Below, in pieces: positions 55,440 to 57,540 of a DNA stretch of 64,000 bases. A program made the position numbers and the translations under genes. Position 1 is the first letter of the stretch; the number at the start of each line of letters is the position of its first letter. The DNA comes from Sphingomonadales bacterium (GTDB taxonomy: Bacteria > Pseudomonadota > Alphaproteobacteria > Sphingomonadales > Sphingomonadaceae), in the NCBI GenBank assembly GCA_014763545.1, contig JACXVD010000014.1, forward strand, positions 1-64,000, written 5' to 3'. Below the pieces are notes generated by a model. That model saw only the letters and a list, made by a program, of their open reading frames with translations, searched no databases and had not been told where the DNA came from.

Positions 55440-55468
55440 TTGCCAGCGAAGGGAAATCTTCGCGGCAA
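55440..55468 (+). promoter_or_regulatory. Leader hairpin directly before the small-peptide gene
   Basis: TTGCC-A-GCGAAG (55440-55451) pairs with CTTCGC-GGCAA (55458-55468) around GGAAAT, an 11-bp stem with one bulged A. It ends one base before the ribosome-binding site AGGAGG (55470-55475). A weak -10-like TACAAT lies at 55396-55401. Confidence 0.55.
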
Positions 55469-55482
55469 CAGGAGGAATTGCG

Positions 55483-55647
55483 ATGAACCTGCCCTCGATC
55501 GACCTGTCGAGCCTGCCCGACCTCGGCAGCCTGACCGGCACGTTCGGCAGCCTGTCGGATATTGCGACGGCGATCACCGACGACCGGATCATTGCGATCA
55601 TGGTCTATCTCTACGAAACGCTCCCGCCGACCGTGCCGGGCAGCTGA
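55483..55647 (+). CDS. 54-residue acidic peptide of unknown function, possible RiPP precursor or partner
   Basis: A short gene with a consensus ribosome site (AGGAGG, seven bases before ATG). The peptide begins MNLPSIDLSSLPDLGSL, continues through DIATAITDDRII and ends MVYLYETLPPTVPGS. It has many acidic residues, one Arg, no Lys and no Cys, with a hydrophobic run IIAIMVYLY and a Pro-rich end. I do not recognise a family. It is 25 bases before a pair of cupin-like genes with no terminator between, so all three are probably co-transcribed. It could be a modification substrate of those proteins or a small structural partner; both are speculation. Confidence 0.7.
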   Translation: MNLPSIDLSSLPDLGSLTGTFGSLSDIATAITDDRIIAIMVYLYETLPPTVPGS

Positions 55648-55672
55648 GCACCCCGTCGCGTGGAACGCTGAA

Positions 55673-56641
55673 ATGCGGATCGGCCCGATACTCGCTGCGC
55701 TGCGCCGCGATCCGGTCGCGCAGCGCAGCGACCAACAGGCCATCGTCGATGCCCGCGACGAATGGCTCGCTTCCTCGCAAAGCCGTGCGGTCGCAGCGGG
55801 ACTGGCTGCCTATGGGGCGGGTTCGGCCTTGCCCGATAGCGGCGAACTGGCATCGCTCTTGTCGCAGCAACGGCGCGCCGGACATTTTGCCGATCGGCTG
55901 ATGCAGGTAATGGTCCCGGCGCTGCGCGAGGCCCGGCTCGGGCACGTGCCGTTCCGGCACCAATATTCGGGTGGCTATCTGATCCTCCAGCTCCTGATGT
56001 CGGGACGCGCGGCCTTGTCGCTGGCGATGATCGAGGGGGACCGCCTGCACGACCGGCAGGCAGCACGCAGCGTGTGCTTCAGCGACGGTGAGCGGCACGA
56101 GATAATCCTCGCCGGACAGGCGCAAGCGCGGATCGTGCGGCGCAGCGACTGCAACGGCAGCAAGGCCGTGCTGTCCTGCGAACGCCTGCACTTGCGCGCG
56201 GGAACGACCATCGCGTTGCACGGAAATTGCGAAACCAAGCTCGTCGACCATGTCCCGCACCGTCTGGTTTCGCTCCGCCTCTCGCGCACGCCGGAACTGC
56301 CCGGGCCATCGCGCGAATATCGCCTGTCCGATGGCGCGCTGATCCATCAGGCGAGCGGCGATCTGCGCGAGAGCCAGCTGGAACTGGCGATGGCGGTGCT
56401 GGGCAAGATGGGGCGGCGCGATGCCGCCCCCGCGCTCGCGCAGCGGGCCATGCAGGGCAACGACCACCATCGCTGGCAGGCGCTGCGCGAATGCCTGGCG
56501 CTCGATGCCGGAGAGGGATTTGCCGCGCTCGACCGGATTGCCCGCGATGCACGCGATCCGCTGTCGCCGCCCGCGCTGGCGTTGCGCGCCCAACTGTTGG
56601 CGAAGCATCCCGAACTGGAGCGCATCCCATGCCCCGCGTGA
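55673..56641 (+). CDS. Cupin-like/helical-repeat protein with degenerate metal site
   Basis: A 322-residue protein I do not recognise by name. Its layout matches the next gene: a helical N-terminus (about 1-80), a cupin-like beta domain (about 85-215) and a helical-repeat tail (about 235-320, with LELAMAVLGKMGRRDAAPALA). Where the partner has His-Asp-His, this one has His126-Asp127-Arg128, and I see no clear match to the partner's third His, so metal binding is doubtful. It overlaps the downstream gene by 13 bases. Possibly a non-catalytic paired subunit. Confidence 0.6.
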   Translation: MRIGPILAALRRDPVAQRSDQQAIVDARDEWLASSQSRAVAAGLAAYGAGSALPDSGELASLLSQQRRAGHFADRLMQVMVPALREARLGHVPFRHQYSGGYLILQLLMSGRAALSLAMIEGDRLHDRQAARSVCFSDGERHEIILAGQAQARIVRRSDCNGSKAVLSCERLHLRAGTTIALHGNCETKLVDHVPHRLVSLRLSRTPELPGPSREYRLSDGALIHQASGDLRESQLELAMAVLGKMGRRDAAPALAQRAMQGNDHHRWQALRECLALDAGEGFAALDRIARDARDPLSPPALALRAQLLAKHPELERIPCPA

Positions 56642-57540
56642 TCGAGGTCGCGGACGCGCGCAGCTGCACGCCGGAGGAATGTATCGAGGGGCTGCGCAGC
56701 ACGGGCTACGATCCGCGCTGCGAGGAGAGCACCGCCCATGCCGCCGGGTGGCTGCGCAGGCTCGGCAACAATCGCAGCTTCCTGGGCGATATGCTGGTGG
56801 ACGAGCTGGCCGGGCGATCGGCGCGCGAAGGGCTCGAGAGCGGCTACACCCCGCAGGCGATTGTCCTGTCGCGGCAGGAGGCGGGCTTTTTCATGCGGGC
56901 CAATATCTGGCCGGCGCCCGGCGACTACGCCTATCGCGCAAGCGGGGCGCATAATTTCGTCTATGGCACGCCGCACGACCACAATTTCGATTTTCTTACC
57001 GTGGGTTACTTCGGCCCTGGCTATCGCAGCGACTATTACGAATACGATTATGAGGCGGTCGATGGCTGGCGGGGCGAGGCGGCGGGCTTGCGCTTTGTCG
57101 AGCGCAGCGCGCTGCATGAAGGCAAGCTGATGCACTATCGCGCGCTGCGCGACGTCCACAGCCAGATCCCGCCCGAAAGCCTGTCGATTTCGCTCAATAT
57201 CATTGCCACCGACCCGATGCAGGGATGGCTGGACCAATACGGCTTCGATCTCGAAACAGGGACGGTGAGCGCCATCCTCAACCCCGGGTCGAGCGAGTGC
57301 CTGCTGCGCCTTGCGGTCGGGCTGGGCGGGGATGAGGCGATCGACCTCGCCCACGAATTCGGGCGAAGCCACCCGTCGGACCGGATGCGGCTGGCCGCCT
57401 ACGAGGCGCGCAGCCTGCTGGCCGTAGCGCCGGACGAAAGCGACGCACTGTGGCGCGATGCCGAATTGGCGGGTAGCCGTCTCCTCGCGGTGGAGGCGCG
57501 GCGGCGGCGCGCAGAACTCAGCGGAATGGCGGCTCGTTGA
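56629..57540 (+). CDS. Cupin-fold, cysteine-dioxygenase-like protein with helical tail
   Basis: A 303-residue protein. The central domain resembles thiol-dioxygenase cupins: GTPHDHNFDFLTVGYFGPGY supplies His116 and His118, and RDVHSQIPPESLSISLNI supplies His177, the three-His pattern that binds non-haem iron in cysteine dioxygenase. A helical-repeat tail (about 220-300) follows. It overlaps the preceding paralogue by 13 bases and the convergent AMP nucleosidase gene by 23 bases. Substrate is unknown; the small peptide encoded upstream is one candidate. The CDO resemblance is by eye. Confidence 0.6.
   Translation: MPRVIEVADARSCTPEECIEGLRSTGYDPRCEESTAHAAGWLRRLGNNRSFLGDMLVDELAGRSAREGLESGYTPQAIVLSRQEAGFFMRANIWPAPGDYAYRASGAHNFVYGTPHDHNFDFLTVGYFGPGYRSDYYEYDYEAVDGWRGEAAGLRFVERSALHEGKLMHYRALRDVHSQIPPESLSISLNIIATDPMQGWLDQYGFDLETGTVSAILNPGSSECLLRLAVGLGGDEAIDLAHEFGRSHPSDRMRLAAYEARSLLAVAPDESDALWRDAELAGSRLLAVEARRRRAELSGMAAR

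Follow-up and report, generated by a model that had tools for sequence, protein, structure and literature searches.

The locus studied here raises the question whether a small peptide gene and the two overlapping genes behind it form a system for peptide modification. It lies in a stretch of 64,000 nucleotides from a Sphingomonadales bacterium, which was analysed as a whole and is called the window below. An earlier note on this DNA had described a gene for a 54-residue peptide with a perfect ribosome-binding site, followed by two overlapping genes for cupin-like proteins, and had put them forward as a candidate undescribed system recalling RiPP pathways. According to the present analysis, the three genes, named P, A and B, probably are an undescribed peptide-modifying system.

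Genes and proteins of the window locus

The coordinates, the peptide of 54 residues, the AGGAGG site and the overlap of A and B, which amounts to 13 nt in the window, were borne out by the sequence. The features are as follows.

55470 to 55475, + strand: Shine-Dalgarno sequence AGGAGG of P, reads CAACAGGAGGAATTGCGATG, 6-7 nt ahead of the ATG
55483 to 55647, + strand: P, candidate precursor peptide, 54 aa, acidic
55673 to 56641, + strand: A, pseudoenzyme-like partner, 322 aa, thiol-dioxygenase-like cupin with HEAT-like tail
56629 to 57540, + strand: B, candidate non-haem iron oxygenase, 303 aa, thiol-dioxygenase-like cupin with HEAT-like tail
56974 to 56982, + strand: His116-Asp117-His118 of B, candidate metal ligands, invariant in the 46-member alignment
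57157 to 57159, + strand: His177 of B, candidate third metal ligand, invariant also in the most distant relatives
57184 to 57198, + strand: S186-x-S188-x-N190 of B, apparently replacing the Ser-His-Tyr motif, as judged from alignments and a weak profile match

B occurs once in the window genome. Neither Pfam nor NCBIfam contains a family for P, A or B; the sole Pfam match of B, to DUF693, was at chance level. None of the PADLOC models for anti-phage defence was matched at E 0.1.

P is acidic (pI 4.05) and free of cysteine, as had been described before. Its N-terminal part contains the conserved pattern LPxLxxxTGxFGS, and the C-terminal part is hydrophobic with the conserved pattern DDxxVxIMVYxY. 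The peptide is conserved across Erythrobacteraceae and relatives (103 loci), with a median dN/dS of 0.23 over 161 pairs and values of about 0.07-0.28 for the closest pairs. Thus, P is protein-coding and under purifying selection, and the lack of synonymous bias that the earlier note had named as a refutation was not seen. An attenuator leader peptide and a random ORF were ruled out by the same values. Cysteine is absent from P in 99 of the 103 loci, including the window, and present in four; where it is absent, the usual thiol chemistry of the fold described below cannot be the reaction on P. A leader-binding (RRE) domain was not detected, and within the C-terminal part no position is the same in all types of peptide. 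The peptides of a Sphingosinicella-type branch (L106, L107, L109, L110, L138, L139) share EVGGxxC or EVAGxxC with a single cysteine. This motif resembles the end of a double-glycine leader; a C39 peptidase was not recognised nearby.

For B, the AlphaFold2 model (pLDDT 92.8) was matched by Foldseek to the mercaptosuccinate dioxygenase 8vni with E 1.3e-7. With VIA-align, Z was 13.3 to the Pseudomonas thiol dioxygenase 4tlf (161 residues aligned, rmsd 3.3). By its model, B is a cupin fold of the CDO/ADO type. Residues 221-302 are predicted to be helical, and individual B members match HEAT_2. The Pfam cut-offs for CDO_I and other cupins were reached neither by the window proteins nor by the aligned family members, and searches with the sequences against the PDB gave chance matches only.

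The triad His116/His118/His177 proposed earlier is present in B. In all 46 aligned members H116, D117, H118, H177, S186, S188 and N190 are invariant; in a further alignment S186 and N190 were invariant and S188 was found in at least 90%. The most distant relatives retain HxHN, the distal His and the SxSxN pattern. Judged by sequence positions, B thus has a candidate three-His ligand set of HxH and a distal His. The Ser-His-Tyr motif of CDO and MDO is absent; in that register, which was taken from a weak CDO_I profile alignment and from the shared HDH and distal His, B has S188, N190 and I192. Ser-His-Tyr is also missing in ADO and PCO, which act on protein N-termini (PMC8503633).

A was modelled with a pLDDT of 95.1 and reached Z 10.7 to 8vni, which belongs to the same enzyme group as the matches of B. 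Its residues 231-317 are helical in the model, and 19 of 44 A members match HEAT_2. The common layout of both proteins that had been suggested earlier could thus be seen in the models: each consists of a thiol-dioxygenase-like cupin and a helical, HEAT-like tail. Between the sequence profiles of A and B, hhalign matched the tail alone (E 0.03) and full-length similarity was undetectable; common descent therefore rests on the fold. In the barrel of the aligned A members there is no invariant His, Asp or Glu, hence no conserved metal ligand. Its residues thus do not mark A as a second enzyme, and it looks like a pseudoenzyme partner. Of the two putative iron enzymes of the earlier note, B remains a candidate by its three histidines, and A does not.

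Distribution of the cassette and its surroundings

B was found in 55 of 196 Sphingomonadales genomes, and the three-gene cassette is present in about a quarter of the genomes sampled. From genome contigs 80 B loci were retrieved, mostly from Erythrobacteraceae. P lies directly 5' of A and B in 107 of 108 loci with upstream sequence (the 103 loci mentioned above and four divergent ones, some of which stem from one and the same genome or from nearly identical ones). The exception, L099, has a damaged A, and P was not found there. P is uncertain in L126; in L162, with insertion-sequence-like genes upstream, it was not detected. Gene order and spacing are maintained across loci, with mostly 8-50 nt between P and A and an overlap of A and B of mostly 13 or 1 nt. 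The frequent absence of the small gene beside its cupin homologues, which had been named as a possible refutation, was not observed.

When P was searched alone in the 196 genomes, it was detected only beside A and B or a relic, except for one weak match in G146 that looks like chance. The sole P without B is a decayed cassette in G119, and the P in G097 is explained by a contig break. Nearly all loci have one P per cassette; two genomes, G074 and G145, carry two different cassettes each. Paralogues of P elsewhere in the genome were excluded by the same search. A relic cassette was found in L147 (5680-6345), with an intact N-terminal part of P fused into a remnant of the B tail, while A and most of B are gone. 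A phage origin of the cassette was rejected, as there was no match in phages and no confirmed relative in viral contigs.

The cassette adjoins two thioesterase genes, as in the window, in 62 of 90 long loci. Other Sphingomonadales cassettes have different surroundings, e.g. genes resembling argH, lysA and siroheme synthase, as judged by eye from their sequences. Since the surroundings vary, the thioesterase neighbours are regarded as inherited synteny. A functional tie to the flanking thioesterases, the penicillin-binding protein or the AMP nucleosidase was rejected for the same reason. Neither an exporter nor a peptidase is linked to the cassette near the window or in the Sphingomonadales loci examined.

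In the Sphingomonas branch a gene for a winged-helix regulator (Trans_reg_C) lies directly 3' of B in about nine loci, among them L106 (6985-7308), L132 (4191-4751), L134 (6277-6999), L136 (4468-5076) and L139 (5040-5477). A regulator in this position is confined to that branch, and some of these proteins have an N-terminal region lacking a Pfam match.

Distant clusters with A and B

P-like ORFs of distant loci (e.g. L129) remain acidic in their N-terminal part and hydrophobic in their C-terminal part. Where the gap between P and A is long, a hairpin was predicted in it (z down to -7.5), consistent with excess production of P; in the window the gap contains no hairpin.

One distant cluster with a bacteriocin-like layout, L152, was found on a plasmid of Alteromonas stellipolaris (CP013927.1 63122-73904). 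Its genes are ordered as HlyD-type adaptor, ABC ATPase, MacB/FtsX permease, two peptides, A, B, ABC ATPase and ABC2 permease. A hairpin follows each of the small ORFs for these peptides, MKSLYLKNEPVVTSNVDSVIEPVSTIVMIVVAIGPKIK and MKIPKLKNEAKHAVGTSVDETVGAACFGIGMAVGVYLNQLR. Linkage to an exporter comes from this one plasmid; a second relative, L162, has just an ABC ATPase gene nearby. In the annotation of L152 only hypothetical proteins and an ABC transporter are given, and both small ORFs are unannotated.

Four genomes of one family (L161, L172, L173, L174), whose gammaproteobacterial class was inferred from searches centred on G683, encode a conserved peptide of 50 aa that is not related to P. 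It lies between the A-B pair and a Cupin_8 gene, ends with GFGCIDSE or similar and shows a dN/dS of 0.11-0.29. The peptide gene is on the opposite strand from the A-B pair (e.g. L161 5073-8208), and a protein of roughly 160 aa with a signal-like N-terminus is also encoded in these loci. On a Vibrio plasmid (L153, NZ_CP080241.1 23605-31898) divergent, short genes for both A and B were found next to a Tn3 transposase. The order is different there, with a 59-aa peptide containing one cysteine after B.

Possible function and comparison with known systems

The reading that we prefer, with a probability of roughly 0.6, is that A and B act as a heterocomplex which oxidises P, a RiPP-like precursor. 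P would be made ribosomally as the precursor peptide, and A and B would form a paralogous complex. B may bind Fe(II) via H116, H118 and H177 and oxidise a residue of P with O2. A, with its metal site lost, might keep the peptide and B joined, perhaps by means of the HEAT-like tails. Within P, the N-terminal half could serve for recognition, and the Val/Ile-rich C-terminal part could be the target. As the window clade has neither a linked exporter nor a linked protease, its product may remain intracellular or use unlinked functions.

In favour of this reading are the order and spacing of P, A and B, the purifying selection on P and its near-exclusive co-occurrence with the pair. The fold of B, its invariant histidines and the missing Ser-His-Tyr motif, as in ADO and PCO, count for it as well, as do the ligand-free version of this fold in A and the Alteromonas and gammaproteobacterial clusters. 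Against it are the lack of a linked peptidase or exporter in the window clade, the cysteine-free P, the lack of a universal C-terminal residue and of an RRE, and the absence of a hairpin in the window. For the RiPP-like system proposed in the earlier note, co-occurrence, conservation of P, the fold of B and the distant clusters thus argue in favour, and the missing exporter or protease near the window argues against. As in RiPP loci, a short conserved precursor-like gene is linked to candidate modifying-enzyme genes. More tentatively, and at somewhat less than even odds, we propose a new RiPP class, in which a three-His thiol-dioxygenase-like oxygenase and its pseudoenzyme paralogue, joined in a heterocomplex, would oxidise a non-thiol, probably aliphatic or aromatic, peptide residue, which would be a new reaction for this fold.

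P could instead be a third subunit that stabilises or anchors A and B, its hydrophobic C-terminal part packing into the complex or the membrane, while the enzyme oxidises a free small molecule, thiol or other. The thiol-dioxygenase fold of B would suit such a substrate. A single P per cassette nearly everywhere, the confinement of P to A-B loci in the 196 genomes save the relic and the weak match, and the tight spacing in the window, with neither hairpin nor linked exporter or protease, agree with a subunit as well. However, an unrelated peptide replaces P in the gammaproteobacterial family, Alteromonas has two peptide genes next to an exporter, and the hairpins that follow P in distant loci speak against a 1:1:1 stoichiometry. 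We therefore consider a subunit unlikely, though worth keeping in view; the conservation of the peptide, its tie to the oxygenase-like pair, its exchange between lineages, its duplication next to an exporter and the hairpins that set it apart fit a precursor better.

Less probable still is an oxygen- or redox-sensing module, in which B would modify P or a small thiol to an extent set by O2 and the resulting state of P or of the A-B pair would feed a regulator. ADO and PCO share this fold and serve as O2 sensors (PMC8503633), and the Trans_reg_C gene directly 3' of B in about nine Sphingomonas-branch loci would be in place for such a role. But this regulator is absent from the window clade, none was seen in the distant clusters, and clusters flanked by an exporter suit a secreted product better. 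An ordinary metabolic pair of thiol dioxygenases with a chance small ORF upstream would account for the fold match to CDO and MDO. It is hardly credible, since the protein-level conservation of P already refutes it; the strict co-occurrence of P, the missing Ser-His-Tyr motif and the lost ligands of A speak against it as well.

If P is indeed a precursor oxidised by A and B, a maturase family without a current Pfam or NCBIfam model would be added to ribosomal peptide biosynthesis, and the thiol-dioxygenase fold would be extended to cysteine-free peptide substrates. Furthermore, a function would be assigned to a cassette of about a quarter of the sampled Sphingomonadales genomes. HDHN, DVHxQ and SxSxN together with the HEAT-like tail provide a signature that can be mined.

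Regarding known systems, A and B resemble the thiol dioxygenases CDO, 3-mercaptopropionate dioxygenase, ADO and PCO in their fold, with an N-terminal helical region and the barrel (Z 10-13), and B shares HxH and the distal His with them. In contrast to these enzymes, the cassette proteins have no detectable Pfam match and carry a HEAT-like tail, and B has SxSxN instead of SxHxY. The cassette also adds a constant pseudoenzyme-like partner and an adjacent, mostly cysteine-free peptide gene. In the open-access literature searched, no paper combining cupin, HEAT repeat and RiPP precursor was found.

The exporter of the Alteromonas cluster presumably resembles MacAB-type peptide export, e.g. DarBCD of darobactin. 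As there, an adaptor, an ATPase and a MacB-like permease lie beside peptides, in this one relative. The DarC model gave 16.5 of 450 bits, far under the cut-off.

RiPP clusters with a non-haem iron oxygenase and a partner (MNIO/DUF692) likewise have a small precursor-like gene before both. The DUF692 TIM barrel is absent from the cassette, where no Pfam match was obtained and a cupin fold is found instead. Compared with MNIO and pbs-type clusters, the cassette lacks a radical SAM enzyme and the window locus an exporter, and both modifying genes encode thiol-dioxygenase-like cupins with HEAT-like tails. A cupin-like hydroxylase, PbsQ, acts in the known RiPP cluster pbs/bpm (PMC12257519), and the extra Cupin_8 protein of the gammaproteobacterial A-B family is comparable to it.
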